Shown piece by piece: positions 22,732 to 49,849 of a DNA stretch of 64,000 nt. This DNA comes from Mesostigma viride (Eukaryota > Streptophyta > Mesostigmatophyceae > Mesostigmatales > Mesostigmataceae), in assembly GCA_009746045.1 (NCBI GenBank), contig RPFO01001845.1, forward strand, positions 1 through 64,000. The letters are read 5' to 3'. The notes under the pieces are model-generated. The model was given only the letters and a program-made list of their open reading frames with translations. It ran no database searches and was not told the origin of the DNA. The translations under genes were made by a program, and so were the position numbers. The first letter of the stretch is position 1. Each line of letters begins with the position of its first letter.

Positions 22732-23348
22732 AGTTGTGAGGGTAAGAATGCCACGAATTCCGCCATGGTTCTTGCAGGAAGTTGCCTTTATTAACAATCA
22801 GGAAACACAGACGTAAGTCACGTCACTTCCAAGACTGCACGCAGCACAGACGACAGGGTCGCAGTGCCAAGAGAACGTGCACGCAAGAACTAGCGTCCCG
22901 GTGTGACCAAGTCACTCATATAGCTTACTAGGGACGCGTCCAAGTATTCAGCTGCACTGTCACAGCTGAACTGTCAATCAATTGATTACACAGACTCTGG
23001 CACGCCTTTGGCGCGCAGATCTATCAATTGTCCATACGGCTAGTCCTGTGGACCTATCCGTACACTAGTCAGCATCAATTGTCTCATAGGTCCTGGCGCG
23101 CTACAGTGCGCCTACCTATCAATTGACCATCAAGTCCTGTACAAGTCCTGTCAACGTCCTGCGGACTATCAAAGTGACACTTGTACATCCTGTGTCCGTA
23201 CGCGCCCACAGTGGCGCGCCGGGTACTGTCGGCACAGCCTAGGAAACGTCATAACTTTTACGTTCCTTAACCAAATGAGGCGTTCAAGGTGCCGTTGGAA
23301 AGAGCGTAACAATCTCTATCCATCTAACGTAAATCCTTTACGTTAACT
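22732..23348 (-). repeat. Family A copy 1, 3' LTR
   Basis: 617 bp. In the minus sense it starts AGTTAACGTAAAGGATTTACG and ends CCCTCACAACT. Its opening ACGTAAAGGATTTACGT is an inverted repeat, as the opening of the family B LTR also is. Confidence 0.95.
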
Positions 23349-23371
23349 CCAATCCCTTCTTTTCTTTAGGG
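23349..23371 (-). promoter_or_regulatory. Polypurine tract of family A copy 1
   Basis: In the minus sense, CCTAAAGAAAAGAAGGGATTGG directly precedes the 3' LTR. The same tract lies at 45277-45299 and about 60923-60945 in the other copies. Confidence 0.8.
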
Positions 23372-24295
23372 TCACATCCCCTGCCAGGGACCCTTGAAGT
23401 AGCTTGAAATGTCCTTCACTCCAGCTTGAAGCTTGAACAGATGTCTTTAATGGCCAATGCCATTCCCCCAGCCCTTTCTTTTAAGGAACTGGAAAAGAAA
23501 CAGATCTGCCACAGGGAAAACCATTTCATGAGAAATGGAGAAAACCTATGGAAGTGGCATTACAGAGTACCACCAGATATTAGAAGCACACAAAATTAAA
23601 TACATACAGGTTAATTCTATGAGGTCTTCTCCAGGAATTAATCCCATCACCTCGGTAGAGCCTCCAGTACAATGACCTTCTGGCGGTGAGTTACATTAAT
23701 CCCAGATACTAATCCCATAAAACCCAGTACATATTCAATATAAGTACAATAAATCCATGACAATTAAAATACCACTTGACAAAGTAAGGCGTATTACAAT
23801 AGTTTGCCTGTCATTCTCTCAACAGGGGTCTATTGGCGCCCGTCTTACGGCGCCCGTCTACTTGCCAGATGGTAAACTGCCACAGCAAACAAATGACAAA
23901 ATGAAACACATAGGCAACAATTAAATCCTGCCCTGGGGAACTAGGGAAGTCTGAACAGGCAAACACCTGAACAGGCCAGCTTGTAGAAACATAATACCAG
24001 GGAATCGAACCCCGCCCTATAAACCCCAGAATAAAGGTTCCCAGACCATTGTGAGAGTATGTACAAATATACATTTCTTTTAAAATAGAATACATGGTCT
24101 GTAATGGACCTGTCAACCTTGTGTAGTCAACAGCATGAACCCCAGCCAAAACCTGGCTGTATCCTGATTAAAATCAGAGTGAGTGTACCATGGTCCATGA
24201 GCCTTAGTACAGACTAAAATACAGGTATTATGCCAGTCACAATGCTGACACTACCACACAATCTGCTCTCCAATGCCCTATAACCATGCACCAGC
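23372..24295 (-). other. 3' UTR of family A copy 1
   Basis: About 0.9 kb between the pol stop and the polypurine tract, with no open frame of note. It contains the tRNA T-arm-like motif at 23996-24018. It is very similar in all three family A copies. Confidence 0.7.
23996..24018 (-). promoter_or_regulatory. tRNA T-arm-like (B-box) motif in 3' UTR
   Basis: In the minus sense GGGCGGGGTTCGATTCCCTG contains GGTTCGATTCC, a perfect RNA polymerase III B-box, and can fold as a 5-bp T-stem with a 7-nt loop. The same block is in family B at 31620-31641 and 42402-42422, although the surrounding 3' UTRs are unlike. No complete tRNA is present. Confidence 0.6.
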
Positions 24296-27200
24296 TTAGA
24301 CAGCTTGCTGAGATGGGTCCATCAGAGACTGAAGAACCTTGTATTGCACTGCTGCCTTCTGCACTAGCTTGGTCAAAGCATCAGCAGGATTGTCAACCCC
24401 AGGGATATGCTCAATATTGGCCAAGGAGGACAACTCCTTAAGAAGGAGATAATCCAAGTCCCTACTTCTGGCCATCTGCCTGTGCACAAACTGCACCATC
24501 CCCATGGAGTCTGTTTTTAGAAGAGTGGTAACCTGAAGTGGCCAAGGAGTGTTAGAAGTCATCTGATGAAGCAACTCCTTCAGATAAAGGCTTGTGTGAA
24601 TGCCTTCACAAATAGCCCTGCATTCTGCCACATCACTGCTGACAGCCACCCGTTTGTGCAGGCGACTAAACCAGCTCACCAAACTCCCCAGGCCTTCCTG
24701 TCTGAGCACAAAGAGCCCTGCAGCCCTGCCCCTGACCTTGGAGACCTGCCTGCTGTCCATTGAGCTATCCACATACAGCTCCATGCAAATGGGTTGTGAT
24801 AAATCCACTGCAGACAACAGAATGCCAGATGAAGCCCTGACCTGATCAGCCACCTTGGCAGACCCTAGCTCCACCAGCATGTCATCAGGCAACCTGGCTA
24901 TGACCATAAGGTCTGGCCTGGAAATGCCTGCCACCCAAGCAACCATGCCCCTCACCATGGGACACAGTGCCTGTGTGATGGTTGGAGGAAGCTTGCTAAT
25001 GAGGGTCTCTTGATAGTCATTGCCCCCCACCAGCAGCATACGCCACTCCCCTCCCTTCTTCACCAGTGTGGCCTCCATGCCCACAAACAGCAGAGGCTCA
25101 TTCTCCACCTGCCATTGCTCCCTACCCAGAGGAAACTTGGACTTAATGATGGAGATCAGCTCCTTAAGCCACGACGTGGGAGCTATCAGATGTAGGTCAT
25201 CCCCGTGCAGCGAAGCATACACTGGCAGGCCTTCCCATTGCCCCAGAAACAGACAGGGGTCTACAGGAGAGACCTTCAAGTTGCAATGCTCCTTCAGGAA
25301 ACGGTTGAGAGTCTCCCTCCAGATTATTGGACTTGACCTCAGGCCCTCCAGGCCCTTGAGGATTTTAAGGAACTCCGTGTGGATGTCCCTTTTCCATACA
25401 GCAGGCACCCTAACATAGAAAGGCGTCTTGCCCTCCCACTTTTCCTGTGCCACATCTGCATCACCCTCCAGAAATGCCCTCTTGAAGTCTATCACCACTG
25501 AGCCATAGTCCAAGCCCTTGTTGAGAAGGCCTAGAAAGACACACAGCAGCAGCCTCCAAGTATCATGCAGCATGCCAGGGGTATACAACTCCTCAGCAGT
25601 GCACTCACCAGTACCCTTGAACTCATTCAGCACTGGCCTGACATGTGGTACCTTGACCCCGTCCACCTCCTTCATCTTGATGACAAACTTGAGCTTGAGT
25701 AGACGTCGTGCAGGAGGCAGGTCATTGACAGGTTCCACGCATTTCTTGGAGATCCAGTCCTCCCCAGATTTAATCAGACCCAGTGTGACCTGGGGACACA
25801 TAATGGGAGAGGACATGAGCTTCACCAGGCCTTGGTAGTTGATAGGGCTGTGTCCAGCAAGTGAGTGAGGACCAATGCCCAAACTGCTTGGATGACTAGC
25901 AGCTGGCAGTATGAGGTCATCAACCAAGGGCTCCTGCCCCTGGCACACTTGCACACGCTTAACCGTCCTGGTTACTGCACGTGATAGGTGAGTGGTCCTG
26001 AAATTAATCAGTGGGACCTGACCAGCCCCTTCCTTAGTCAGGAGAGAGGACGTGATCACTACCCCATCCTGGCATAGGAAATTCTGCCCCAGAAGAGCAG
26101 GTCCTTGATAGCCCTCCAAGACACAAAAAGCAGTGTCCTGTCCAAGGATAGGAATGAATACCTCACCCAGTACCTTCACGTGTACCCCGCCACTGAAGTC
26201 AGACACAAACTGATAGCTGGGTTCAGACATGCTGTACCCTGCTGCAGCCCTGGTCCCAATAATGGAGACCTGAGAATTAGTGTCTACCTCTAAGGCAGTG
26301 TCCAGCCCCAGATTGCCATGCCACCTGAGCTTGGCTACCTTGGGCTGCTTCTTGGCCCTTTGTAGAGCCCCAATCAATCCAGCCAAACTTGTCCCCCTGG
26401 GCTTGGTTAGTGCCTTGGGCTTGACAGTTGACTCCCCAGCTGTTGACCTTGCAGCCTGTTCAACAAGTACCTCTGCAACCTGGCCAGGGCTGACAGATTC
26501 CCCTGCAACAGATGTGGTCGTTGCGTCAGTGATGTCACCTGGGACCTGAAAATCCTGCAGATCCTGTGAGCCTTGTGCCTGACTGCCCTCATTCATCAGG
26601 TTAGGCTTGACATATGACCAACTCAGCCGGTGTACATGCTTTGGTTCGTCCTCCATGCTGACCAAGCATGCGTGGCTAGCTTCATCAACCTGGGTAACCA
26701 CCCCAGGACTCCAGCTACCACGTTTGCCATAAAGGCTAGGTTCCTTCCAAGCTAGGACCTTCTGACCCACTTGTGGCTCCAGCATCTTCCAACCCCGGTC
26801 CTTCTCCCTCAGCTTGGCAAAGGTGACATGTGCAGCATGTTTCCAGCCCTCCAGCACATGTGGTGGGCACAGGCCATGATATAGACCCATTGGGCTGACA
26901 GCAACTCCATCATAGTAGAAGTTAACCCTGCTGTTCAGCTGCTGCTCCACGTTCCTCAGCCATGCACTCCTGACAAGTGCAGGTGCAGACAAGGGTACCC
27001 AGTCTTCAGAGATGATCAATTTCTTGACCTCCTGGATTGCCCTCTCGATAGCACCCTGCTGCCCATGAGCCTCCCTAGGTGTAACCAGCAACTCAGGAAG
27101 GGTAGGATCACCCTTGAGATGCTGAAACTGCATGTCCACCTGGATCCTTGTGGTAGGAAACTTGGCTCTTACATTCTGCAGGGCAGCCAGCAAGTACCTG

Positions 27201-27781
27201 TTCTTCATAGAAGGTAAATGCTCCAGCACCTTGTATTTCGTGTACCTGTCCACGCACACCAACAGTTGCATGCCCCTGATGTGTTGGATATCACACTGCA
27301 GATCACCAATGCTCTGAGGTAGAGCTTTGGCATGTGATTTCCTGGGCTTGTTGGAGGACAACTGGCACTTACACCGTGAGGCAGCTTGCTGACACGCCTT
27401 AAGAAGGGGTGCCCTGCCCATACGGAAGGCAAAGTTGTTTGACAGAGAAGTGGCATGCCCAAACATGTTGTGGATTCGGGCACCCAACTCCTGGTACACA
27501 GAGGAAGCAGTCCCTGGCACAGTCAGGACTGTGCTGTCAGGTTGTCCAGCATCACCATGCTGACTTCCATCCTGTTCTGACTCAGAGCCTGAGTCACCCT
27601 GCTCATGCCCAACACCTGGACCGCCAGCAGGGACCACATGCATACCACCAGAGGCCTTCACACCCCTCTGTGGTTGTACATTGGTTTCTCTCAAAATGAG
27701 AGGTCCACCCTCGTGCCCAGCACGAGGATGCATAGGGTCAGACATACTTACAGCTGCATCAGCTGTCAAGGACGTCTTCAT
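24296..27781 (-). CDS. Pol polyprotein of family A, copy 1 (IN-PR-RT-RNase H)
   Basis: 1161 codons without a break. Residues 104-139: H-x4-H and a cysteine group (C130, C137, C139), the integrase zinc region. Integrase core: D164, D216 and E246 (G-A-I-E-R-A-I-Q), with a W-S-P-G-V-V tail module near 357. Residues 497-569: L-E-V-D-T-N-S-Q-V-S, then L-L-G-Q-N-F-L 63 residues later, the layout of a retropepsin with N in place of the usual G. RT: D765 in I-D-F-K-R-A-F and D861-D862 in L-H-G-D-D-L. Copia-type RNase H: D1005, E1053, D1091, D1110, ending N-P-A-D-A-L-T-K. Integrase before RT places it in Copia, but the protease lies after integrase, not before. The start is nominal: the frame is open back to the gag UGA, 47 codons upstream, so readthrough expression is likely. 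Confidence 0.93.
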   Translation of the reverse strand: MKTSLTADAAVSMSDPMHPRAGHEGGPLILRETNVQPQRGVKASGGMHVVPAGGPGVGHEQGDSGSESEQDGSQHGDAGQPDSTVLTVPGTASSVYQELGARIHNMFGHATSLSNNFAFRMGRAPLLKACQQAASRCKCQLSSNKPRKSHAKALPQSIGDLQCDIQHIRGMQLLVCVDRYTKYKVLEHLPSMKNRYLLAALQNVRAKFPTTRIQVDMQFQHLKGDPTLPELLVTPREAHGQQGAIERAIQEVKKLIISEDWVPLSAPALVRSAWLRNVEQQLNSRVNFYYDGVAVSPMGLYHGLCPPHVLEGWKHAAHVTFAKLREKDRGWKMLEPQVGQKVLAWKEPSLYGKRGSWSPGVVTQVDEASHACLVSMEDEPKHVHRLSWSYVKPNLMNEGSQAQGSQDLQDFQVPGDITDATTTSVAGESVSPGQVAEVLVEQAARSTAGESTVKPKALTKPRGTSLAGLIGALQRAKKQPKVAKLRWHGNLGLDTALEVDTNSQVSIIGTRAAAGYSMSEPSYQFVSDFSGGVHVKVLGEVFIPILGQDTAFCVLEGYQGPALLGQNFLCQDGVVITSSLLTKEGAGQVPLINFRTTHLSRAVTRTVKRVQVCQGQEPLVDDLILPAASHPSSLGIGPHSLAGHSPINYQGLVKLMSSPIMCPQVTLGLIKSGEDWISKKCVEPVNDLPPARRLLKLKFVIKMKEVDGVKVPHVRPVLNEFKGTGECTAEELYTPGMLHDTWRLLLCVFLGLLNKGLDYGSVVIDFKRAFLEGDADVAQEKWEGKTPFYVRVPAVWKRDIHTEFLKILKGLEGLRSSPIIWRETLNRFLKEHCNLKVSPVDPCLFLGQWEGLPVYASLHGDDLHLIAPTSWLKELISIIKSKFPLGREQWQVENEPLLFVGMEATLVKKGGEWRMLLVGGNDYQETLISKLPPTITQALCPMVRGMVAWVAGISRPDLMVIARLPDDMLVELGSAKVADQVRASSGILLSAVDLSQPICMELYVDSSMDSRQVSKVRGRAAGLFVLRQEGLGSLVSWFSRLHKRVAVSSDVAECRAICEGIHTSLYLKELLHQMTSNTPWPLQVTTLLKTDSMGMVQFVHRQMARSRDLDYLLLKELSSLANIEHIPGVDNPADALTKLVQKAAVQYKVLQSLMDPSQQAV

Positions 27782-27922
27782 AGGAACCTGTACCTCTCCA
27801 GGTGACCTGGGGCCACACTGAACCTGGAGATCACCCTCTTGTTGCCCAGATATAAAATCTGCATTGGAGCACCTGGCCTCCCCCTTGGGTGAATTAAGGT
27901 GTGTAGGGGTTGCCTCAGACAG

Positions 27923-27925
27923 TCA
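27923..27925 (-). promoter_or_regulatory. In-frame UGA between gag and pol, family A copy 1
   Basis: gag ends CAG-UGA-CUG. The next 47 codons are open in the same frame up to the first pol ATG at 27781. UGA followed by C is the leakiest stop context known. The same stop is kept at 49850-49852 in copy 2, and an equivalent one in family B. Confidence 0.7.
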
Positions 27926-29049
27926 CTGCTCCTTGTTGTCTTCTTGCTGACTGCCCTTTGAAGGCTGGCCTGCCTGGGACTTGTTGTTGTTCTTCTTGTT
28001 GTTGTTGTTATTCTTGTTGCTGCCCTGGCCCTGGGACTTCTTGAAGCTGGGACACTCCTTCTTGATGTGCCCCCACCCCTTGCACAGGTAGCATTGTATC
28101 TTGGACTTGCCCTGGCCACTGCCCCCATTGTCAGACGCGTTGCCCTGCTTGGGCTGACCACCCACCCGCCTGAACACCGACTTGGAGTGTGACCTCCTGT
28201 CAGAATCAGGTGAATGATCTCCCTTGCGCTTGTGATGGTTGCCCCTACGCCCTCCTTGGCTTCGGTCAGCCTCAGACGTCTTGGAGCCACCCTGGGTACG
28301 CCCGCCTGCCTGGGTAGCCTTCACTGCTGGCACTCCACCCTCAAACAGCTCCTCTGCCTCGAGAGCTTGTTTAATGATGACCTTGTAGGCCTTCAGGGTA
28401 GAGTGTGGGGCACACATGACTTTTAAGGAGCCACGTGTCGCCTTATCCAGCCCAGAAACCTTGAGCCAGTTGGTTAGGGCTATGTTATCAGCGACATTAA
28501 AGCCGTGAGCCCTGCCCTCCTCAACCATCTTACAATAGTTGAGAAAGTTCTGGATCAGGTCCCCCTTGACCTCCCACCCTTGGTACTTGTCCTGCCAATG
28601 GATGCCCACTTCTTCCTCTGATCCTCCAGCAGCTCCTTCAGCAGCTCCTTCAGCTCAGCCACGTACAGTGCCCAGGCCTTATTGGCCTTTTTGCACTCCC
28701 TGGTTAGGTCCTTAATCTGGTCAGTACACTTGCCAAAAGTGCTACTGCCTATCCAGATTTGATAGTAATTTGTACCACCGTACAAGCTAGGGAACCCTTC
28801 CAATCCCTCCACAAACTCTTCAGCCTGCTTAGGCTTGGAGTCTGAGGTTACAGGCTGCAACTGATTGACAATTAAAAGACCCTGTGTGGTAAGATCAAAG
28901 CCATGAATAGCTTGTGCATTATTATTATTGTGAGGAAGGTTGGTAATCTCTCCGGTAAGCCCCACGTCATCTACGTGAGCGGTTCCACTACCAGCACCCC
29001 CATTATTATTCCCACTGGCTGGACCCTTGCTACGGCGTCCCTCAGCCAT
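27923..29049 (-). pseudogene. Gag of family A copy 1, one frameshift
   Basis: Starts M-A-E-G-R-R-S-K at 29049. A frame change near 28600 joins the first part to the second (28609-27923); copy 2 reads through this point (K-K-V-G-I-H-W), so the break is specific to copy 1. The second half has the retroviral zinc knuckle C-Y-L-C-K-G-W-G-H-I-K-K-E-C (C-x2-C-x4-H-x4-C) and a Q/N/K-rich tail. Consensus length is about 375 residues. Gag forms the particle shell and binds element RNA. It ends at the UGA shared with pol. Confidence 0.85.
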
Positions 29050-29218
29050 CCTGCACTACCAGCTATTCAAAGAACACCTTAACAAAGCAGCAGAAAATAT
29101 GTACAAAATTTTTGTGTCGCCACTGCCGCCTGCGCCGGTGTCGCTGCCGCCCCGCGAATTGCCGCTGAAAATTCGACAAAAAAATGTCGACGAGTACTGC
29201 AGAAGAAAATTAGGCCGA

Positions 29219-29929
29219 CTAGTAGTCAAGGCCCCTGAAGTCGCAGTACGTGTATACGAACTCACGATCCTCCATATCCAGCTCCGGACCTGCACCGGTA
29301 TGAATTAAAACCGGCGTGCTCCCCGCCGCGTAAGTTGCGACGCGCCGACGCGCGACGAGGCGCAGAGGATGTGTAAAGATCGTCAATAATTCCCACCCCG
29401 CGGGAATCCACTCTCGCACAGAGGCGAGAAATGCCACCAGGTTAATTAAAACCTGGCGCTCGCGACTGCGTACGCCGCGAGTGAGCAGCGATAACAGCGC
29501 GAGATCCTGAAACAAATTTGTCGACACCGCCGGCGCGCCCCCCGTGCGTAGCGATGCCCAGTTTTGCAGGTTTCTCTGGTAACCGGTGAGTGAAGAGAGG
29601 ACGTTGTCCAACTCCTCAATGGCAGTCGTGACTTCGGTCACCGACCGCAAACCTCCCCGCACCTGGACCGTAAATGTCGATAAAATGTTTCGAATCTGGT
29701 CCAACAGGTTGCGGATTGCCGGCACCAGTGCTGGCAAATCGGGGTCCTCGGGGTTATCCCCGAGCAATGCGTGAGCTGCACGCTGCTGACGATGAAGCTC
29801 GTCGAGCGAGACCGTTACTTCGTCGAGCAATTGCTGCCACGACGGCACCGTCGGTCTTGACGAAGAACCAGCCGGCGGAGCGGCTATTTCCTCATCGTCC
29901 GGAATCCGAAATTCTTCCGAATTTGGCAT
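29219..29929 (-). CDS. ORF1 of family A copy 1, extra ORF before gag
   Basis: 236 codons from an ATG only 24 nt after the 5' LTR to a stop 169 nt before gag. It begins M-P-N-S-E-E-F-R. The frame extends upstream into the LTR (to 30019). The protein has an acidic N terminus, then long hydrophobic/charged helices with heptad-like spacing (L-L-D-E-V-T-V-S-L-D-E-L and similar), an arginine-rich loop and an acidic C terminus. I do not recognise a family. Family B has an ORF of similar size in the same position with weak similarity around I-E-E-L-D-N-V-L, so it looks like a shared lineage gene. It may act as a structural or RNA-binding accessory, but nothing shows this directly. Confidence 0.65.
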   Translation of the reverse strand: MPNSEEFRIPDDEEIAAPPAGSSSRPTVPSWQQLLDEVTVSLDELHRQQRAAHALLGDNPEDPDLPALVPAIRNLLDQIRNILSTFTVQVRGGLRSVTEVTTAIEELDNVLSSLTGYQRNLQNWASLRTGGAPAVSTNLFQDLALLSLLTRGVRSRERQVLINLVAFLASVREWIPAGWELLTIFTHPLRLVARRRVATYAAGSTPVLIHTGAGPELDMEDREFVYTYCDFRGLDY

Positions 29930-29936
29930 CTTTTTG

Positions 29937-29953
29937 ACAGAGCGTGTAATACG
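29937..29953 (-). promoter_or_regulatory. Presumed primer-binding site of family A
   Basis: Directly after the 5' LTR, the minus sense reads CGTATTACACGCTCTGT. It does not start TGG, so a tRNA 3' CCA end is not the obvious primer. The family B LTR is followed by CAAATTACAATGAG, which shares C-x-x-ATTACA. Confidence 0.45.
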
Positions 29954-30570
29954 AGTTGTGAGGGTAAGAATGCCACGAATTCCGCCATGGTTCTTGCAGG
30001 AAGTTGCCTTTATTAACAATCAGGAAACACAGACGTAAGTCACGTCACTTCCAAGACTGCACGCAGCACAGACGACAGGGTCGCAGTGCCAAGAGAACGT
30101 GCACGCAAGAACTAGCGTCCCGGTGTGACCAAGTCACTCATATAGCTTACTAGGGACGCGTCCAAGTATTCAGCTGCACTGTCACAGCTGAACTGTCAAT
30201 CAATTGATTACACAGACTCTGGCACGCCTTTGGCGCGCAGATCTATCAATTGTCCATACGGCTAGTCCTGTGGACCTATCCGTACACTAGTCAGCATCAA
30301 TTGTCTCATAGGTCCTGGCGCGCTACAGTGCGCCTACCTATCAATTGACCATCAAGTCCTGTACAAGTCCTGTCAACGTCCTGCGGACTATCAAAGTGAC
30401 ACTTGTACATCCTGTGTCCGTACGCGCCCACAGTGGCGCGCCGGGTACTGTCGGCACAGCCTAGGAAACGTCATAACTTTTACGTTCCTTAACCAAATGA
30501 GGCGTTCAAGGTGCCGTTGGAAAGAGCGTAACAATCTCTATCCATCTAACGTAAATCCTTTACGTTAACT
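29954..30570 (-). repeat. Family A copy 1, 5' LTR
   Basis: 617 bp, no difference from 22732-23348 seen. It contains the presumed promoter; only weak TATA-like sequence (CTATATGAG in the minus sense) is visible. Confidence 0.95.
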
Positions 30571-30575
30571 GCATT

Positions 30576-31827: not shown

Positions 31828-34800
31828 TTAGACAGATAGACCGACTTGACAGTCAGCATTCATGAGTTTCCTCAGTACATTGTACTGGGCTGGGGCCTTG
31901 TGTGGCAGCTTTGTCAATGCATCAGCAGGGTTCTCCTCGCCAGGGATATGCTTCAAGTCAACCAAATTGGCCAACTCCTTCAGCAACAAATAATCCAGGT
32001 CCCGGCTCCTGGCCAGCTGCTTGTGAACAAACTGGACCATACCCATGCTGTCTGTTAGCAACAACGTCTCCATCTGCAAGGTCCAAGGGGTAACTGAAGC
32101 CAGCTCCAGCATTAACTCCTTTATGTACAGGCTGGACTGGATCCCCTCGCATATGGCCCTGCATTCTGCCACATCTGAACTGATACAGACCCTCTTCTGC
32201 AGTCTGCTGTACCAGCTGAACAAACTTGCCCTGCTCTGATAAAAAGCAAACAGAGCAGCAGATCTCCCCCTGACCTTGGTAACCTGGCGAGCATCCATGG
32301 AACTGTCAACAAAGATCTCCAAGGTGATAGGCTGGGTAAAGTCAATCCCAGACAAAATCAGATCAGGGGTACTCTCCACCAACCGGGCTATGACTCGAGG
32401 CTTCTCATCCTCAACAAGCACCTCATCAGGCATTCTGCTATGGACCATCAAAGACGGACCACAGATGCTGGCAAACCAGGCCCACATGCCTCTCAACTCA
32501 GGTCCTGCAGCCTGGGTGATCTTCTCTGGCAAGGCCTTCACAATGGTCTGTTTATAATCTCCTCCAGCCTGAAGCCTGATACTCCACTCCCCGTCCCTCC
32601 TGAACAGGGTAGCCTGCATTCCACAGAACACTACAGGCTTGTTGGGCTCCTGCCACAGCTCCTTGCCCAGTGAAAACTTGCCACTGATGACAGGAATAAA
32701 CTTCTTCAGCCAGGTCGTGGGGGCTAGCAAATGCAGATCATCTCCATGCAAACTAGCATACACTGGCAGACCCTCCCATTGGGCCAGCAGCAAACAGGGA
32801 TCAACTGAAGACACTCTCAAGCCACACTCACTGATCAGAGCTTCCTGCAGCGTGAGTCTCCAGATGATTGGGCTCGACCTGAGTCCTTCCAGGCCCTTCA
32901 GAATAACCAGGAATTGTTGATGCAGCTCCAGCTTCCAGATGGCAGGCACCTCAACACAGTAAGGCTCATCCTGCTTCCACACCCTCCTGGCCACTTCTGG
33001 ATCAGATTTTAAAAATGCCCTCTTGAAGTCCAGCAGCACTGATGACATAGCTGCTCCCCTGTTCAGCAACCCCACGTAGAGACATAGCAAAATTCTCCAT
33101 GTGTCGTGTAGCATCCCTGGCGTGTATAGCTCCTCTCCTGGCAGACTCCCCGTGCCGTGATACTCATTCAGGACAGGCCTGACATGGGGCACTGATACCT
33201 CATCCACAACCTTCCTCTTCAGCACAAATCTCAAAGCAAGCTTCCTTGATGCTGGGGGACGTCTGTCTGTTGGTGCAGCACACTCAAACTGCAACCACTC
33301 CTCCAGTGCCTTGGAGAAGGCGAGCTTCCAAGCCTCAAACAAAGTAGGCGAGCTCATCTCTTGGACCAGCTGGTCATATGTCAAAGGAGAGTGTGCAGCA
33401 AGGCTCCTGTGAGTTATGCCAATACTGCTGGGGTGCAACACAGCTGGAATCACCAAACTGGCCGCTGGGGGCACCTCCCCTTCGTCCCATTTTACACCCT
33501 TGACTGGCTTGGCCCTGCACCTGACTGGAAATGTTGTCCTGAAATTTTCTAGGGGAATCATCCCCCAGCCATCTCTTCTCAGAGCTGTAGCTCTGATAGA
33601 AATCCCAGGATTGCCCAGAAAATTCTGACCCAAAATCACAGGGCCATCATAGTCCTCTAGGACAAGGAAGGTCACATCCACACCCATGACAGGGGCAGTA
33701 ACCTCTCCCAACACCCTTAGATGCGTCCTACCACTGAAATCAGACACCCAGGGGCAACTTGGTTCTCCGACCAGCAGTTCTCCTGTATGCTGAGGTCCCA
33801 TGACAGAAACCTGTGCATTGGTATCTATCTCCATGGCAGCTACCTCAGGTTCATCCAACTGGACAAGCTTGGACACCTTAGGCTCCTTCTTGGCTCTTTG
33901 CAAAGCCTGTACAATATCTGATAGACGCACACCCCTAGGCCTGGTGTCGGGCCGTTCCGGAGGTGCAGCCTGTCCGCCTGCTTGCCCAACCACCGTATGT
34001 GAAGGTACCCCAGGGGCCGGGCCAGGGTCACCCTGAGGGCTCGATACAGCTGTAGCACCCTGATCAGGAAGCTCCACGTCACCCCCGCCTTGTACACCAG
34101 CGGGCACCTGGAAGAGGTCTCCTTGATTACCTCCCCGGGGACGGATCTTTGACCAGGACAGACGGTGCACTGCTTGGGAGCCATTAATGGCCACCCAGCA
34201 CTTATGGCCAGCGGCTTCTACTCGGGTCACCACCCCATCATGCCAGCTGCCACGTTTCCCTGGAAAGCTTGGTTCCTTCCACACAACAACCTGTTGTCCA
34301 ACGTTAGGTTCTAGGACACTCCAGCCCTTGTCTTTCTGCCTCAGCTTGAGGAACTTGGCCTCTAGCTTCTCCTTCCATGCCTGCTCAGCATCAGCTGTCA
34401 GCATCCTGGTATGCAGCATAAGAGGATTGATGGCAATGTCACCAAAGAACATGGGAGTCCTCAGGTTCAGCCTGTCCTCCACAGAACGTAGCCATGCAGA
34501 TGTCACAATGGCAGATGACGTCCTTGGAATCCTCTCCACCAGCAGCACAGTCTTGATCTCTTGGATGGCTCTCTCCACCACCCCTTGCTGGCCGTGGCTC
34601 TCCCTGGGTGTAATCAGCAACTCTGGAAACTCTGGCAGGTTCTCACAGCACTCAAACTGAATGTCACACTGCAACAACTCCAACCCAGGGTACCTGCTCC
34701 TTGTCAACTTCAGAGCAGCAATCAATGTAGGCTTCTCCATGTCAGGCAGGATCTCTAGGGTCTTGTACTTGGTATATCTGTCCACTGCCACCAGCAGCTT

Positions 34801-35388
34801 CAAACCCCTGATTCTCTGAATATCTACCTGCACATGGCCTGGCTGCAAAATAGGAGTCCTGGCATGAGACTGCTTGGGCTTTCTAGCAACTAGCCTGCAC
34901 TTGCAAGCTTGAGCAACCTGTTGGCAGATGGAGTACAACTCACTTCCTCCCAGCCGTCTAGCAACTTGCAAAGACTGAGCTGCATGGCCAAACATGGTAT
35001 GCAACCTTGAGGCAATGTCATACAAGAGAGAAAACCTTTTATTGTCATTATTAGCAATCAAGGTATGTACAGATCCCTTATGTACAGGAGGCACCAGGGT
35101 CGTGCCTGTCAGACTGTCTCCAGCCCTATCCTCATCCTGACCATCCTGTGCCAGTCCTGCACGGTCAGAATGCTTCTGAGATCCACCTGGGTCCACATCA
35201 CCAGGTCCTACCTCAGGCTCAGCACCGCCATGGCGGGCACGTTGGCGAGTAACTACTGCAGCTACAGCTGGCATACTCTCTGTGGTAACCAAGCTTGCCC
35301 CATCGTGTCCAATAGGCTCTTTCACTAGAGCATGGGGCTGCCCCTCACTGCTGTCACTAGCAGCTTCATTACACACCCCTGGGGGCAC
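31828..35388 (-). CDS. Pol polyprotein of family B, left copy, intact (IN-PR-RT-RNase H)
   Basis: 1186 codons uninterrupted. Integrase zinc region H-T-M-F-G-H with C-K-C (about 130-164); core D189, D242, E272 (V-V-E-R-A-I-Q-E). Protease-like region between integrase and RT: M-E-I-D-T-N-A-Q-V-S with D522, then V-I-L-G-Q-N-F-L at about 584-591. RT: D787 in L-D-F-K-R-A-F and D883-D884 in L-H-G-D-D-L. RNase H: D1028, E1075, D1113, D1132 and N-P-A-D-A-L-T-K. Roughly half the residues match family A in the RT and RNase H. The frame has no ATG at its start (GTG at 35388) and is continuous with gag except for one UGA, so it is probably made as a Gag-Pol readthrough product. It lies downstream of a truncated gag, so this copy alone cannot make full Gag. 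Confidence 0.93.
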   Translation of the reverse strand: MPPGVCNEAASDSSEGQPHALVKEPIGHDGASLVTTESMPAVAAVVTRQRARHGGAEPEVGPGDVDPGGSQKHSDRAGLAQDGQDEDRAGDSLTGTTLVPPVHKGSVHTLIANNDNKRFSLLYDIASRLHTMFGHAAQSLQVARRLGGSELYSICQQVAQACKCRLVARKPKQSHARTPILQPGHVQVDIQRIRGLKLLVAVDRYTKYKTLEILPDMEKPTLIAALKLTRSRYPGLELLQCDIQFECCENLPEFPELLITPRESHGQQGVVERAIQEIKTVLLVERIPRTSSAIVTSAWLRSVEDRLNLRTPMFFGDIAINPLMLHTRMLTADAEQAWKEKLEAKFLKLRQKDKGWSVLEPNVGQQVVVWKEPSFPGKRGSWHDGVVTRVEAAGHKCWVAINGSQAVHRLSWSKIRPRGGNQGDLFQVPAGVQGGGDVELPDQGATAVSSPQGDPGPAPGVPSHTVVGQAGGQAAPPERPDTRPRGVRLSDIVQALQRAKKEPKVSKLVQLDEPEVAAMEIDTNAQVSVMGPQHTGELLVGEPSCPWVSDFSGRTHLRVLGEVTAPVMGVDVTFLVLEDYDGPVILGQNFLGNPGISIRATALRRDGWGMIPLENFRTTFPVRCRAKPVKGVKWDEGEVPPAASLVIPAVLHPSSIGITHRSLAAHSPLTYDQLVQEMSSPTLFEAWKLAFSKALEEWLQFECAAPTDRRPPASRKLALRFVLKRKVVDEVSVPHVRPVLNEYHGTGSLPGEELYTPGMLHDTWRILLCLYVGLLNRGAAMSSVLLDFKRAFLKSDPEVARRVWKQDEPYCVEVPAIWKLELHQQFLVILKGLEGLRSSPIIWRLTLQEALISECGLRVSSVDPCLLLAQWEGLPVYASLHGDDLHLLAPTTWLKKFIPVISGKFSLGKELWQEPNKPVVFCGMQATLFRRDGEWSIRLQAGGDYKQTIVKALPEKITQAAGPELRGMWAWFASICGPSLMVHSRMPDEVLVEDEKPRVIARLVESTPDLILSGIDFTQPITLEIFVDSSMDARQVTKVRGRSAALFAFYQSRASLFSWYSRLQKRVCISSDVAECRAICEGIQSSLYIKELMLELASVTPWTLQMETLLLTDSMGMVQFVHKQLARSRDLDYLLLKELANLVDLKHIPGEENPADALTKLPHKAPAQYNVLRKLMNADCQVGLSV

Positions 35389-35421
35389 CCTCCAGGGTTC
35401 AGGGATGTGTGCAGGCTCAAG

Positions 35422-37022: not shown

Positions 37023-38210
37023 ATGGAAGATGGAGCTATCAACCAACAAGCGGGTTTTATGGGCTTCGGGCGGCGCGGCGCTGGGATGGATGGACGAGAT
37101 GGACGCGATGGACGCGGTGGACGCGATGGACGCGGGGACGGCCAAGCGCTGGGAGACCAGGCTGATGTGCCAGATAATCAGAGCCAAGGATCGCAGGGCG
37201 GGCAGCACGCGCCAGCCGCAGATCAAGCGGCGCCTAAGCGACCAACCGTTGCTGAGGGGTACGCGGTGCTAGGCCAGTTTCAGTCCATCAAGGACAATTG
37301 GCAGCCCCGGGATGCTGAGAGGATGTTAGAGGACATGAACTTGTACACGGAGATATACAACGGTGACAAGCTTCGCATCTTGGCGTCTAGTGCCTACATA
37401 CGGCAGTCGGCGAGGCGGCTGTTCAAGTTTGTTCGGGAGCGACATGCGGCGGGGGACACCTGGACGGCGTTTATGACGCGACTCAGGTCGTTCCTGAGTG
37501 ACAAGAGGACCATAGATGGGTCCCACCTGAAGCAAGAATACCTGGACTACAAGCCCATCAAGGGGCAACTAGTGGTCCACCCCTTTGAAGACTTCGTCAA
37601 GCTGAGGGAGGACGCCATGGCCAAGGGCTTCTTCGTCGCAGATCGGATGGCCATGGGCGACTTTCTCAAGTCGCTGCAGCTGGATCCGGTCACCATGGAT
37701 AATGTGACCATCCACATGCGACAGGTCCATGGCTGGGCAGCCATGACGGACCAGTTGTATGAGTGTTTCAGCGGCAAGTACGTGGGTGGTAAGCGCCCTC
37801 GTCAGGGTGATGAGGAGGCCACTGAACCCACGGTTAAGTCCATGAGGGGATCGGGCCACGGGGGCCCAGCGCCCTCGAGAGGGCCTGAGACCTCTTCAAG
37901 GGGTCGAGGAAGGTCCAGGAGGGGGCGTGACAGAAGGGCTGGACGGGGGACCCCGCCGAAGTCGGGACATCCACAGTCCCAGTTTGACTTCAAGAGGGTG
38001 GGTGGTCCTCCCAAGGCTGGGCCCAGCAGTGGGACCTCACGGGACATCAGTCAGGTGGAATGTTATTTCTGCCAGGGGAAGGGTCACTTCAGGAATGAGT
38101 GTCCCTCGTACCTGAGGCAGGAAGGTCAGAGCAAGCCAGCTCAGGGTGGCAGCAAGGACAAGGCTGGTCCATCCCAGGACAAGGGCAAGGGCAAGGCTGC
38201 TGATCATTGA
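37023..38210 (+). CDS. Gag of family B, right copy
   Basis: 395 codons. N terminus M-E-D-G-A-I-N-Q-Q followed by imperfect G-R-D repeats (five R-D-G/R-G-G units); a helical central capsid-like part (residues about 85-245, with W-T-A-F-M-T-R-L-R-S-F-L); an arginine/glycine-rich basic region; zinc knuckle C-Y-F-C-Q-G-K-G-H-F-R-N-E-C near residue 345; and a lysine-rich tail ending A-A-D-H. It ends CAU-UGA-CUU in frame with pol. It is the only complete gag among the family B copies. Capsid assignment rests on position and the knuckle. Confidence 0.88.
   Translation: MEDGAINQQAGFMGFGRRGAGMDGRDGRDGRGGRDGRGDGQALGDQADVPDNQSQGSQGGQHAPAADQAAPKRPTVAEGYAVLGQFQSIKDNWQPRDAERMLEDMNLYTEIYNGDKLRILASSAYIRQSARRLFKFVRERHAAGDTWTAFMTRLRSFLSDKRTIDGSHLKQEYLDYKPIKGQLVVHPFEDFVKLREDAMAKGFFVADRMAMGDFLKSLQLDPVTMDNVTIHMRQVHGWAAMTDQLYECFSGKYVGGKRPRQGDEEATEPTVKSMRGSGHGGPAPSRGPETSSRGRGRSRRGRDRRAGRGTPPKSGHPQSQFDFKRVGGPPKAGPSSGTSRDISQVECYFCQGKGHFRNECPSYLRQEGQSKPAQGGSKDKAGPSQDKGKGKAADH
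38208..38210 (+). promoter_or_regulatory. In-frame UGA between gag and pol, family B right copy
   Basis: CAU-UGA-CUU-GAG, then open in the same frame into pol with no intervening stop or ATG for about 49 codons. The mirrored stop in the left copy is at 35422-35424. Family A has UGA-CU in the same place. Confidence 0.7.
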
Positions 38211-41200
38211 CTTGAGCCTGCACACATCCCTGAACCCTGGAGGGTGCCCCCAGGGGTGTGTAATGAAGCTGCTAGTGACAGCAGTGAGGGGCAGCCCCAT
38301 GCTCTAGTGAAAGAGCCTATTGGACACGATGGGGCAAGCTTGGTTACCACAGAGAGTATGCCAGCTGTAGCTGCAGTAGTTACTCGCCAACGTGCCCGCC
38401 ATGGCGGTGCTGAGCCTGAGGTAGGACCTGGTGATGTGGACCCAGGTGGATCTCAGAAGCATTCTGACCGTGCAGGACTGGCACAGGATGGTCAGGATGA
38501 GGATAGGGCTGGAGACAGTCTGACAGGCACGACCCTGGTGCCTCCTGTACATAAGGGATCTGTACATACCTTGATTGCTAATAATGACAATAAAAGGTTT
38601 TCTCTCTTGTATGACATTGCCTCAAGGTTGCATACCATGTTTGGCCATGCAGCTCAGTCTTTGCAAGTTGCTAGACGGCTGGGAGGAAGTGAGTTGTACT
38701 CCATCTGCCAACAGGTTGCTCAAGCTTGCAAGTGCAGGCTAGTTGCTAGAAAGCCCAAGCAGTCTCATGCCAGGACTCCTATTTTGCAGCCAGGCCATGT
38801 GCAGGTAGATATTCAGAGAATCAGGGGTTTGAAGCTGCTGGTGGCAGTGGACAGATATACCAAGTACAAGACCCTAGAGATCCTGCCTGACATGGAGAAG
38901 CCTACATTGATTGCTGCTCTGAAGTTGACAAGGAGCAGGTACCCTGGGTTGGAGTTGTTGCAGTGTGACATTCAGTTTGAGTGCTGTGAGAACCTGCCAG
39001 AGTTTCCAGAGTTGCTGATTACACCCAGGGAGAGCCACGGCCAGCAAGGGGTGGTGGAGAGAGCCATCCAAGAGATCAAGACTGTGCTGCTGGTGGAGAG
39101 GATTCCAAGGACGTCATCTGCCATTGTGACATCTGCATGGCTACGTTCTGTGGAGGACAGGCTGAACCTGAGGACTCCCATGTTCTTTGGTGACATTGCC
39201 ATCAATCCTCTTATGCTGCATACCAGGATGCTGACAGCTGATGCTGAGCAGGCATGGAAGGAGAAGCTAGAGGCCAAGTTCCTCAAGCTGAGGCAGAAAG
39301 ACAAGGGCTGGAGTGTCCTAGAACCTAACGTTGGACAACAGGTTGTTGTGTGGAAGGAACCAAGCTTTCCAGGGAAACGTGGCAGCTGGCATGATGGGGT
39401 GGTGACCCGAGTAGAAGCCGCTGGCCATAAGTGCTGGGTGGCCATTAATGGCTCCCAAGCAGTGCACCGTCTGTCCTGGTCAAAGATCCGTCCCCGGGGA
39501 GGTAATCAAGGAGACCTCTTCCAGGTGCCCGCTGGTGTACAAGGCGGGGGTGACGTGGAGCTTCCTGATCAGGGTGCTACAGCTGTATCGAGCCCTCAGG
39601 GTGACCCTGGCCCGGCCCCTGGGGTACCTTCACATACGGTGGTTGGGCAAGCAGGCGGACAGGCTGCACCTCCGGAACGGCCCGACACCAGGCCTAGGGG
39701 TGTGCGTCTATCAGATATTGTACAGGCTTTGCAAAGAGCCAAGAAGGAGCCTAAGGTGTCCAAGCTTGTCCAGTTGGATGAACCTGAGGTAGCTGCCATG
39801 GAGATAGATACCAATGCACAGGTTTCTGTCATGGGACCTCAGCATACAGGAGAACTGCTGGTCGGAGAACCAAGTTGCCCCTGGGTGTCTGATTTCAGTG
39901 GTAGGACGCATCTAAGGGTGTTGGGAGTTAGCTGAGATACCTCGAGGCTGACTTGTGGCCGGAGCCACACAGGGGAACATACAGTGTGACCGGAGTTATT
40001 CTGGCGGAGACAGAATAACGGTGCCGAGCGCCGGTTGTGGCGCGACGCACACACGTGTACGCAAGTTACGTAGCTAGCAACTAGTCTAGTGGACGTTGTG
40101 CGTAGTAACGTTGCTCCAGGTCTAGAAGCCTCTAGAACCTGGACACGTGGCGGACAAGTGAGCGTAGTCCAGTTGTCCTAGGGATCTCGTGTGAGTGATG
40201 TGTCCACGACATATAATGTGTGCCCACATATGGAGTGAATAATGACAAGGAACGCCCCGATCCCTGGCGTTGCTGCAGCCATCATTCTCACACTGAGTCC
40301 CCAACGTCTCCGACGTACATCTATATATCTAACTTTGGGAGAGGTTACTGCCCCTGTCATGGGTGTGGATGTGACCTTCCTTGTCCTAGAGGACTATGAT
40401 GGCCCTGTGATTTTGGGTCAGAATTTTCTGGGCAATCCTGGGATTTCTATCAGAGCTACAGCTCTGAGAAGAGATGGCTGGGGGATGATTCCCCTAGAAA
40501 ATTTCAGGACAACATTTCCAGTCAGGTGCAGGGCCAAGCCAGTCAAGGGTGTAAAATGGGACGAAGGGGAGGTGCCCCCAGCGGCCAGTTTGGTGATTCC
40601 AGCTGTGTTGCACCCCAGCAGTATTGGCATAACTCACAGGAGCCTTGCTGCACACTCTCCTTTGACATATGACCAGCTGGTCCAAGAGATGAGCTCGCCT
40701 ACTTTGTTTGAGGCTTGGAAGCTCGCCTTCTCCAAGGCACTGGAGGAGTGGTTGCAGTTTGAGTGTGCTGCACCAACAGACAGACGTCCCCCAGCATCAA
40801 GGAAGCTTGCTTTGAGATTTGTGCTGAAGAGGAAGGTTGTGGATGAGGTATCAGTGCCCCATGTCAGGCCTGTCCTGAATGAGTATCACGGCACGGGGAG
40901 TCTGCCAGGAGAGGAGCTATACACGCCAGGGATGCTACACGACACATGGAGAATTTTGCTATGTCTCTACGTGGGGTTGCTGAACAGGGGAGCAGCTATG
41001 TCATCAGTGCTGCTGGACTTCAAGAGGGCATTTTTAAAATCTGATCCAGAAGTGGCCAGGAGGGTGTGGAAGCAGGATGAGCCTTACTGTGTTGAGGTGC
41101 CTGCCATCTGGAAGCTGGAGCTGCATCAACAATTCCTGGTTATTCTGAAGGGCCTGGAAGGACTCAGGTCGAGCCCAATCATCTGGAGACTCACGCTGCA

Positions 41201-42215
41201 GGAAGCTCTGATCAGTGAGTGTGGCTTGAGAGTGTCTTCAGTTGATCCCTGTTTGCTGCTGGCCCAATGGGAGGGTCTGCCAGTGTATGCTAGTTTGCAT
41301 GGAGATGATCTGCATTTGCTAGCCCCCACGACCTGGCTGAAGAAGTTTATTCCTGTCATCAGTGGCAAGTTTTCACTGGGCAAGGAGCTGTGGCAGGAGC
41401 CCAACAAGCCTGTAGTGTTCTGTGGAATGCAGGCTACCCTGTTCAGGAGGGACGGGGAGTGGAGTATCAGGCTTCAGGCTGGAGGAGATTATAAACAGAC
41501 CATTGTGAAGGCCTTGCCAGAGAAGATCACCCAGGCTGCAGGACCTGAGTTGAGAGGCATGTGGGCCTGGTTTGCCAGCATCTGTGGTCCGTCTTTGATG
41601 GTCCATAGCAGAATGCCTGATGAGGTGCTTGAGGATGAGAAGCCTCGAGTCATAGCCCGGTTGGTGGAGAGTACCCCTGATCTGATTTTGTCTGGGATTG
41701 ACTTTACCCAGCCTATCACCTTGGAGATCTTTGTTGACAGTTCCATGGATGCTCGCCAGGTTACCAAGGTCAGGGGGAGATCTGCTGCTCTGTTTGCTTT
41801 TTATCAGAGCAGGGCAAGTTTGTTCAGCTGGTACAGCAGACTGCAGAAGAGGGTCTGTATCAGTTCAGATGTGGCAGAATGCAGGGCCATATGCGAGGGG
41901 ATCCAGTCCAGCCTGTACATAAAGGAGTTAATGCTGGAGCTGGCTTCAGTTACCCCTTGGACCTTGCAGATGGAGACGTTGTTGCTAACAGACAGCATGG
42001 GTATGGTCCAGTTTGTTCACAAGCAGCTGGCCAGGAGCCGGGACCTGGATTATTTGTTGCTGAAGGAGTTGGCCAATTTGGTTGACTTGAAGCATATCCC
42101 TGGCGAGGAGAACCCTGCTGATGCATTGACAAAGCTGCCACACAAGGCCCCAGCCCAGTACAATGTACTGAGGAAACTCATGAATGCTGACTGTCAAGTC
42201 GGTCTATCTGTCTAA
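38211..42215 (+). pseudogene. Pol of family B, right copy, split by a solo LTR
   Basis: Same protein as 31828-35388 in opposite orientation. The only differences I see are one codon (V-L-V-E-D-E reduced to V-L-E-D-E near 41628) and a 409-bp solo LTR at 39926-40334 that breaks the frame inside the protease-like region. The frame before it runs on a few residues into the LTR and stops; an open frame resumes within the LTR (from 40242) and continues into pol through RT and RNase H to 42215. Confidence 0.93.
39926..40334. mobile_element. Family C solo LTR
   Basis: 409 bp, starts AGTTAGCTGAGATACC and ends ATATATCTAACT, flanked by TTGGG at 39921-39925 and 40335-40339. The left pol copy has TTGGG once at this place, which proves the insertion. 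The AGTT...AACT ends and 5-bp duplication match families A and B, but the sequence is otherwise distinct. The internal part is gone, presumably by LTR-LTR recombination. Confidence 0.88.
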
Positions 42216-46224: not shown

Positions 46225-49200
46225 TTAGACAGCTTGCTGAGATGGGTCCATCAGAGACTGAAGAACCTTGTATTGCACTGCTGCCTTCTGCACTAGCTTG
46301 GTCAAAGCATCAGCAGGATTGTCAACCCCAGGGATATGCTCAATATTGGCCAAGGAGGACAATTCCTTAAGAAGGAGATAATCCAAGTCCCTACTTCTGG
46401 CCATCTGCCTGTGCACAAACTGCACCATCCCCATGGAGTCTGTTTTTAGAAGAGTGGTAACCTGAAGTGGCCAAGGAGTGTTAGAAGTCATCTGATGAAG
46501 CAACTCCTTCAGATAAAGGCTTGTGTGAATGCCTTCACAAATAGCCCTGCATTCTGCCACATCACTGCTGACAGCCACCCGTTTGTGCAGGCGACTAAAC
46601 CAGCTCACCAAACTCCCCAGGCCTTCCTGTCTGAGCACAAAGAGCCCTGCAGCCCTGCCCCTGACCTTGGAGACCTGCCTGCTGTCCATTGAGCTATCCA
46701 CATACAGCTCCATGCAAATGGGTTGTGATAAATCCACTGCAGACAACAGAATGCCAGATGAAGCCCTGACCTGATCAGCCACCTTGGCAGACCCTAGCTC
46801 CACCAGCATGTCATCAGGCAACCTGGCTATGACCATAAGGTCTGGCCTGGAAATGCCTGCCACCCAAGCAACCATGCCCCTCACCATGGGACACAGTGCC
46901 TGTGTGATGGTTGGAGGAAGCTTGCTAATGAGGGTCTCTTGATAGTCATTGCCCCCCACCAGCAGCATACGCCACTCCCCTCCCTTCTTCACCAGTGTGG
47001 CCTCCATGCCCACAAACAGCAGAGGCTCATTCTCCACCTGCCATTGCTCCCTACCCAGAGGAAACTTGGACTTAATGATGGAGATCAGCTCCTTAAGCCA
47101 CGACGTGGGAGCTATCAGATGTAGGTCATCCCCGTGCAGCGAAGCATACACTGGCAGGCCTTCCCATTGCCCCAGAAACAGACAGGGGTCTACAGGAGAG
47201 ACCTTCAAGTTGCAATGCTCCTTCAGGAAACGGTTGAGAGTCTCCCTCCAGATTATTGGACTTGACCTCAGGCCCTCCAGGCCCTTGAGGATTTTAAGGA
47301 ACTCCGTGTGGATGTCCCTTTTCCATACAGCAGGCACCCTAACATAGAAAGGCGTCTTGCCCTCCCACTTTTCCTGTGCCACATCTGCATCCCCTCCAGA
47401 AATGCCCTCTTGAAGTCTACCACCACTGAGCCATAGTCCAAGCCCTTGTTGAGAAGGCCTAGAAATACACACAGCAGCAGCCTCCAAGTATCATGCAACA
47501 TGCCAGGGGTATACAACTCCTCAGCAGTGCACTCACCAGTACCCTTGAACTCATTCAGCACTGGCCTGACATGTGGTACCTTGACCCCGTCCACCTCCTT
47601 CATCTTGATGACAAACTTGAGCTTGAGTAGACGTCGTGCAGGAGGCAGGTCATTGACAGGTTCCACGCATTTCTTGGAGATCCAGTCCTCCCCAGATTTA
47701 ATCAACCCAGTGTGACCTGGGGACACATAATGGGAGAGGACATGAGCTTCACCAGGCCTTGGTAGTTGATAGGGCTGTGTCCAGCAAGTGAGTGAGGACC
47801 AATGCCCAAACTGCTTGGATGACTAGCAGCTGGCAATATGAGGTCATCAACCAAGGGCTCCTGCCCCTGGCACACTTGCACACGCTTAACCGACCTGGTT
47901 ACTGCACGTGATAGGTGAGTGGTCCTGAAATTAATCAGTGGGACCTGACCAGCCCCTTCCTTAGTCAGGAGAGAGGACGTGATCACTACTCCATCCTGGC
48001 ATAGGAAATTCTGCCCCAGAAGAGCAGGTCCTTGATAGCCCTCCAAGACACAAAAAGCAGTGTCCTGTCCAAGGATAGGAATGAATACCTCACCCAGTAC
48101 CTTCACGTGTACCCCGCCACTGAAGTCAGACACAAACTGATAGCTGGGTTCAGACATGCTGTACCCTGCTGCAGCCCTGGTCCCAATGATGGAAACCTGA
48201 GAATTAGTGTCTACCTCTAAGGCAGTGTCCAGCCCCAGATTGCCATGCCACCTGAGCTTGGCTACCTTGGGCTGCTTCTTGGCCCTTTGTAGAGCCCCAA
48301 TCAATCCAGCCAAACTTGTCCCCCTGGGCTTGGTTAGTGCCTTGGGCTTGACAGTTGACTCCCCAGCTGTTGACCTTGCAGCCTGTTCAACAAGTACCTC
48401 TGCAACCTGGCCAGGGCTGACAGATTCCCCTGCAACAGATGTGGTCGTTGCGTCAGTGATGTCACCTGGGACCTGAAAATCCTGCAGATCCTGTGAGCCT
48501 TGTGCCTGACTGCCCTCATTCATCAGGTTAGGCTTGACATATGACCAACTCAGCCGGTGCACATGCTTTGGTTCGTCCTCCATGCTGACCAAGCATGCGT
48601 GGCTAGCTTCATCAACCTGGGTAACCACCCCAGGACTCCAGCTACCACGTTTGCCATAAAGGCTAGGTTCCTTCCAAGCTAGGACCTTCTGACCCACTTG
48701 TGGCTCCAGCATCTTCCAACCCCGGTCCTTCTCCCTCAGCTTGGCAAAGGTGACATGTGCAGCATGTTTCCAGCCCTCCAGCACATGTGGTGGGCACAGG
48801 CCATGATATAGACCCATTGGGCTGACAGCAACTCCATCATAGTAGAAGTTAACCCTGCTGTTCAGCTGCTGCTCCACGTTCCTCAGCCATGCACTCCTGA
48901 CAAGTGCAGGTGCAGACAAGGGTACCCAGTCTTCAGAGATGATCAATTTCTTGACCTCCTGGATTGCCCTCTCGATAGCACCCTGCTGCCCATGAGCCTC
49001 CCTAGGTGTAACCAGCAACTCAGGAAGGGTAGGATCACCCTTGAGATGCTGAAACTGCATGTCCACCTGGATCCTTGTGGTAGGAAACTTGGCTCTTACA
49101 TTCTGCAGGGCAGCCAGCAAGTACCTGTTCTTCATAGAAGGTAAATGCTCCAGCACCTTGTATTTCGTGTACCTGTCCACGCACACCAACAGTTGCATGC

Positions 49201-49708: not shown

Positions 49709-49849
49709 AGGAACCTGTACCTCTCCAGGTGACCTGGGGCCACACTGAACCTGGAGATCACCCTCTTGTTGCCCAGATATAAAATCTGCATTGGAGCACC
49801 TGGCCTCCCCCTTGGGTGAATTAAGGTGTGTAGGGGTTGCCTCAGACAG

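Follow-up and report, generated by a model that had tools for sequence, protein, structure and literature searches.

A retropepsin-like segment between integrase and reverse transcriptase in two families of Ty1/copia-like retrotransposons from Mesostigma viride

Long terminal repeat (LTR) retrotransposons of two families, A (copies A1–A3) and B (copies B1 and B2), are present in the 64-kb stretch of Mesostigma viride contig RPFO01001845.1 analyzed here in full and called the window below. Both families are Ty1/copia-like, and in both the Pol polyprotein has the order integrase (IN), protease-like segment, reverse transcriptase (RT), RNase H (RH). This order had been claimed in an earlier note on the same DNA and is borne out by the motif positions in the intact A1 and B1 Pols. 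The order, the open frame, the single UGA codon between gag and pol, and the conservation of the segment are read directly from the sequence. The comparisons described below make it highly probable that the segment is a retropepsin-derived domain, and we consider it likely that both families encode a working protease (PR) inside Pol, that is, IN-PR-RT-RH, a probable variant organization of Ty1/copia elements.

Elements and order of domains in Pol

The elements and their pol genes are located in the window as follows.

22732..30573, minus strand: element A1 of family A, about 7.8 kb long including its two LTRs (by self-comparison)
29954..30573, minus strand: 5' LTR of A1, 620 bp, 99.84% identical to the 3' LTR
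22732..23351, minus strand: 3' LTR of A1 (by self-comparison)
from about 44659: A2, copy of family A
from about 60305: A3, copy of family A, cut by the window end
about 30571-35913, minus strand: B1 of family B, truncated within gag
35914-43487, plus strand: B2 of family B
24296..27922, minus strand: A1 Pol, open frame, in phase with the gag end across one UGA
31828..35421, minus strand: B1 Pol, intact, same domain order as in A1
38211..42215, plus strand: B2 Pol, interrupted inside the protease-like segment (open reading frame, ORF, ends at 39935)
46228..49849, minus strand: A2 Pol, piecewise 99-100% identical to A1
61875..63998, minus strand: A3 Pol from residue 501 on, the rest cut by the window end; protease-like segment complete

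The Pol frame is uninterrupted in A1 and B1, while that of A2 has breaks near 47.7 and 47.39 kb, both located downstream of the protease-like segment. Pol A and Pol B (1208 and 1197 residues, respectively) are 50% identical. Self-comparison shows that the window is rearranged around B1/B2, and no 5' LTR of B1 or B2 was found within it. The rearrangement could be taken to mean that the domain order is an artefact of assembly or recombination; however, the order is seen inside uninterrupted ORFs of two families as diverged as A1 and B1, and in five copies, so that this explanation retains a negligible probability.

The ORF at 24296-27781 (minus strand) encodes 1161 amino acids (aa) from its ATG, and as the frame is open upstream as far as the gag UGA, Pol is better numbered from 27922 (1208 aa). 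Residue numbers thus count from the codon after the UGA, and domain borders were set by hand from the A/B alignment.

27482..27922, minus strand: N-terminal Pol linker, residues 1-147, 25% identity between A and B over 109 aligned codons, no Pfam match
26993..27481, minus strand: HHCC motif and integrase core, residues 148-310, with D211, D263 and E293
26588..26992, minus strand: C-terminal part of integrase, residues 311-445
25997..26344, minus strand: retropepsin-like segment of A1, residues 527-642, D-T-N-S at 547, LLGQNFL at 610
33538..33885, minus strand: retropepsin-like segment of B1, D-T-N-A at 533, ILGQNFL at 596
24299..25735, minus strand: RT of A1 (copia-type, HGDD at the active site) followed by RNase H, RVT_2 match

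In A1 the HHCC and D-D-E motifs occupy residues 151-293, upstream of RT, which starts at about 736; RT extends over 736-1010 and RNase H to about 1190, and linkers (residues about 446-526 and 643-735) flank the protease-like segment. The integrase triad is D211, D263, E293 in A and D200, D253, E283 in B. The copia order, PR-IN-RT-RH, has the protease upstream of integrase, whereas the sole protease-like segment found here, at 527-642, lies past it. The RT active site is HGDD in both families (24299-25735 and 31831-33276, both on the minus strand), and the D-E spacing of integrase is 29 residues in both.

Matches of these enzymes to Pfam are modest. Integrase matches rve with E 0.0054 in A (26585-27502) and 0.049 in B, both below the cut-off, and the C-terminal part of integrase in B has a sub-cutoff match to Agenet (E 0.013). 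The A1 RT matches RVT_2 with E 6.8e-7 and 29.6 bits, slightly below the cut-off of 31.6, and the B1 RT-RH region, 61% identical to that of A, has no Pfam match. Hence, even the certain domains of both Pols fit public profiles weakly.

The segment between integrase and RT

The conserved segment comprises about 115 residues and contains D-T-N-(S/A), followed 63 residues on by (L/I)LGQNFL. In retropepsins a (I/L/V)-(I/L/V)-G-x-(N/D) motif is expected approximately 60–65 residues past the Asp motif, and LLGQNFL in A and ILGQNFL in B conform to it in both sequence and distance. The Asp motif itself deviates from the retropepsin D-(T/S)-G-(A/S): Asp and Thr are kept and Gly is replaced. D-T-N is found in five of five copies (at bases 26284 in A1, 48211 in A2, 63860 in A3, 33825 in B1 and 39807 in B2), in line with the statement of the earlier note that Asn has taken the place of the catalytic Gly in both families. 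When each Pol is shuffled 20000 times, 4 shuffles of Pol A and 3 of Pol B contain the motif pair, counts that serve as a guide rather than a blind test, as the pattern was composed after seeing the sequence and allows N at the third place.

Nonsynonymous divergence (dN) between A and B is 0.41 in the segment, compared to 0.80 and 0.72 for its two neighbouring linkers, 0.49 in the integrase core and 0.34 in RT; synonymous sites are saturated, and so only dN was compared among Pol regions. This conservation marks the segment as a domain with a slower rate of evolution than the two adjoining linkers, and its overall identity between A and B is 51%.

Three sets of comparisons connect the segment to retropepsins. 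Firstly, phmmer with the 116-aa A segment against PDB yields tethered dimers of HIV-1 protease as the best matches (E 0.0097), and 16 of the 26 matches are retropepsins, the other ten being NFAT, while with a 146-aa segment the best E is 0.033 and retropepsins make up 12 of 13, these retropepsin matches being one protein family many times over, with tethered dimers scoring twice. The HIV-1 alignment spans HIV residues about 46-98, leaving catalytic D25 outside, and the same offset puts D-T-N within four residues of D25. Two-row profiles retrieve HIV-1 protease in nine of ten PDB matches (E 0.13-1.4). Secondly, the B segment matches Pfam gag-asp_proteas over profile positions 14-91 of 92, with E 0.12, below the cut-off. 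Thirdly, blastp aligns the B segment with the yeast Ddi1 retropepsin from the Asp motif through the LGxxxL motif (26% identity across 80 residues; E 0.002, calculated for a single comparison), and hhalign of the A+B segment profile with a two-row Ddi1 profile gives E 0.0019. When the whole Pol profile is aligned with Ddi1, the highest-scoring alignment falls, among 1208 columns, on 545-617 with a score of 24.7 (E 0.015), Asp motif being paired with Asp motif, and LGQNFL with IGLDML of Ddi1; none of 120 column-shuffled Pols reaches this score, the maximum being 21.8. The comparisons with HIV-1 protease, Ddi1 and gag-asp_proteas all point one way, each being marginal, and the segment is therefore most likely a retropepsin.

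Besides the redundancy of the PDB matches, a number of results weigh against this assignment. No single retropepsin match clears a curated or usual threshold. Within the tethered-dimer matches no stretch passes alone, and the single chain has E 0.79; the unrelated dGCA1 comes first in one of the PDB searches with two-row profiles and second in another. DUF6898 ties with gag-asp_proteas on the B segment (E 0.12 each), and with a longer B segment the latter match is reduced to profile positions 69-91 (E 0.22). The hhalign probabilities are low, 14% for the segments and 3% for the whole Pol. When a Ddi1 hidden Markov model (HMM) is run over 442 ORFs of the window, the A copies rank 1, 3 and 13 with at most 0.3 bits and B is not among the best 15; shuffled Pols reach maxima of 3.0 (A) and 7.5 (B) bits with this HMM. 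Whole Pol A has ten PDB matches, none of them a retropepsin, the whole Pols have no protease match in Pfam, the A segment has neither a Pfam match nor a blastp match to Ddi1, and the B segment has no match in PDB. AlphaFold, run on two-sequence alignments, produced two models of low confidence (mean predicted local distance difference test scores, pLDDT, of 34 and 46), and for the B model Foldseek lists no retropepsins among the best 50 of 172 matches. Neither model has a Foldseek match at E<=0.001; for the first model, retropepsins constitute 18 of the best 50 of 120 matches, all with E 1.8 or worse. Four segments searched in NCBIfam and PHROGs gave no match in the former and one in the latter, of unassigned function (E 0.23).

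Such marginal matches, the searches that miss and the low-confidence fold predictions might be expected if the segment were some other conserved all-beta domain resembling retropepsins by chance, with the real protease absent or unrecognized. We find this improbable: the A, B and joint comparisons converge on one fold family in a compatible register, and the motif pair arises in just the few shuffles counted above.

A protease elsewhere in the elements was sought as well. No D-(T/S)-G with a glycine motif 40–100 residues on is present in the sense frames of A1 (22732-30573) or B2 (35914-43487), and no Pfam protease is found in the A1 gag (both frames), the B2 gag, the two Pol linkers or the scanned ORFs upstream of gag. 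The segment had previously been described as the only protease signature, with no D-T/S-G in Gag or the N-terminal 100 residues of Pol; it does stand as the sole retropepsin candidate found, while a D-S-G at residue 110 of Pol A (base 27595) had been missed. This D-S-G would be an argument for an ordinary copia order, with the true protease upstream of integrase (in gag, in an upstream ORF present in A only, or in the Pol linker) and the D-T-N segment as an extra. Yet it lies in a Ser/Glu/Asp-rich linker, has no partner motif and is absent from Pol B, and the N-terminal linker that contains it has the low A–B identity given above and a dN of 1.04 versus a synonymous divergence (dS) of 1.34. 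Together with the lack of a Pfam protease in the regions just listed, this makes the ordinary order very improbable.

The Asn found in all five copies at the place of the active-site Gly is a further point against a working protease. Retropepsins carry D-(T/S)-G-A, where Thr or Ser makes the dimer grip (PMC7072860). The feline foamy virus protease has Gln at the third place and is the only one of the proteases compared in that paper to do so (PMC7072860); it resembles the A/B segment in that the third active-site residue is not Gly, and differs in being a retroviral protease with Gln where A and B have Asn. Human endogenous retrovirus K (ERV-K) proteases with Arg, Glu, Asp, Val or Ala at the third place are tabled as potentially active (PMC6058741). 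Given the feline foamy virus and ERV-K variants, Asn is unusual, though not by itself a sign of lost activity.

The same substitution, present in every copy as D-T-N where D-(T/S)-G-(A/S) would be expected, speaks for another possibility, that the segment derives from a retropepsin and has lost catalysis with the change of G to N, retaining a structural role, e.g., in dimerizing Pol, while Gag-Pol stays unprocessed or is cut by a host protease. We regard this as unlikely: Asp, Thr, the Ser/Ala after Asn, and LGQNFL are all kept despite the overall divergence of the segment, Asp and Thr being the catalytic and dimer-grip residues, and a third-position replacement is present in a natural retroviral protease (PMC7072860).

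Gag, the gag–pol junction and other features of the window

The two gag genes considered are the following.

27923..29049, minus strand: A1 gag, two overlapping frames, CCHC zinc knuckle near the end, closed by UGA at 27925-27923
37023..38210, plus strand: B2 gag, 395 aa, with CCHC; UGA at 38208-38210, then Pol in the same frame

The CCHC of the A1 gag matches Pfam zf-CCHC with E 0.0015, below the cut-off. The A1 gag is frameshifted relative to A2 (28555-28609), and the A2 gag is broken elsewhere (about 50600-50800); hence neither copy is intact throughout.

In both families (A1, B2) the end of gag and Pol share one frame with a single UGA between them, followed by CTG in A1 and CTT in B2, and the frame is open from the UGA to the first possible Pol start. 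Reassignment of UGA as a sense codon was considered and ruled out, as neither Pol holds an in-frame TGA: there are none in 1208 (A) and 1197 (B) codons, while Trp is present 20 and 25 times, respectively, and therefore UGA is a stop here. The arrangement suggests readthrough of the gag UGA as the simplest reading of the junction. Minimum-energy folds of the 120–123 nucleotides (nt) past the UGA argue in the opposite direction, being unremarkable compared to shuffles (z 0.88 in A and –0.82 in B, in a test that covers structures other than pseudoknots).

For the working protease placed between integrase and RT, we infer the fold, dimerization, activity, readthrough and cleavage sites, which would combine as follows. 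Ribosomes would read through the gag UGA, producing a minority of Gag-Pol, which Gag would pack into particles. Two Pol chains would then pair via the protease segment, each contributing one Asp (D547 in A, D533 in B), and the paired protease would cut the loose linkers on either side (in A, residues about 446-526 and 643-735), releasing free integrase and RT-RNase H, and would also cut the Gag/Pol border.

A broader claim, that the two families represent a separate copia-like lineage with a fixed IN-PR-RT-RH order and an active D-T-N retropepsin, is tentative, and we put it at somewhat less than an even chance. If true, either the protease moved, or integrase was placed ahead of an ancestral PR-RT-RH block, and by either route particle maturation would begin from a protease buried in Pol, not at the Pol N-terminus. 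Outside the window, no relatives were confirmed in viral contigs (whole Pol, RT-RH, protease segment) or prokaryotic contigs (whole Pol, RT-RH) in scans each seeded by two short peptide patterns only, and a phage collection queried with the A1 RT-RH only yielded none.

Between the A1 5' LTR and gag there is an ORF of 236 aa (29222-29929, minus strand). The ORF 29222-30019 that contains it has no Pfam match, and its comparison with three ORFs upstream of the B2 gag shows no convincing similarity (26, 66 and 389 of 400 shuffles score as well), so that a gene common to A and B at this place was dropped.

Element A1 is apparently inserted within the end of the B1 3' LTR, and AATG flanks it on either side (30560-30600, 22711-22760). 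The LTRs of family B have seemingly inverted ends, TGAGTTAACG...CGTTAACTCA, and those of family A end in AGTT...AACT rather than TG...CA.

A 22-nt block, GGGCGGGGTTCGATTCCCTGGT, is identical in all five copies of both families and is situated downstream of the pol stop and ahead of the 3' LTR (0 of 100 shuffles).

23996-24017, minus strand: GGGCGGGGTTCGATTCCCTGGT block
31620-31641, minus strand: GGGCGGGGTTCGATTCCCTGGT block
42402-42423, plus strand: GGGCGGGGTTCGATTCCCTGGT block
45926-45947, minus strand: GGGCGGGGTTCGATTCCCTGGT block
61571-61592, minus strand: GGGCGGGGTTCGATTCCCTGGT block

Alignment of four of the five copies places the block in diverged noncoding DNA. Its shape is presumably that of a tRNA T-arm or Pol III B box; ARAGORN finds no tRNA, and Rfam gives only sub-threshold matches to mascRNA.

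The window also contains an inverted repeat (55785-56399) whose 297-bp arms match perfectly and are 21 bp apart, and long tandem arrays of short units (CACGCACA, CTCC, GGCAGG, GTGGGC) at 6810-7482, 14505-15512 and 57595-59276.

Comparison with known elements

We found no report of the IN-PR-RT order among the open-access titles and abstract openings listed by searches aimed at it or at neighbouring points, a literature that leaves out most subscription papers and repeat databases. Families A and B share with Ty1/copia elements the LTRs, a CCHC gag, integrase before RT, an RVT_2-type RT and the presence of all enzymes in one Pol, and we take the RNase H end, ADALTK, to be Ty1/copia-like as well. 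They differ in the D-E spacing of integrase, 29 residues versus 35 in copia, in the HGDD active site of RT, in the splitting of gag and pol by one in-frame UGA, and in the protease-like segment coming after integrase. Copia elements are described as GAG-PROT-INT-RT-RH, and 5410 plant elements have been so classed (PMC6317226), while the Ty1 active site is given as D-S-G-A (PMC6952103), in contrast to D-T-N in A and B.

A precedent for a change in the place of integrase in Pol is provided by Gmr1, where the position of integrase with respect to RT has shifted, with the protease still in first place (PR-IN-RT-RH). Elements of the Gmr1 type belong to Ty3/gypsy and are reported to have integrase in a copia-like position (PMC2774666, PMC3601003).

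As for the junction, Tca2 of Candida albicans resembles A and B in that its gag and pol are parted by one UGA, which has to be bypassed; the Tca2 junction alone was reported to direct no readthrough in S. cerevisiae (PMC2194720).

The domain order of Pol serves as a criterion for sorting superfamilies of LTR retrotransposons and feeds arguments on the acquisition of integrase (PMC6317226, PMC3601003). An order in which the protease follows integrase and precedes RT would add to the known placements and bear on the question of which module moved, and a retropepsin with Asn for the active-site Gly would test the need for the D-(T/S)-G rule.

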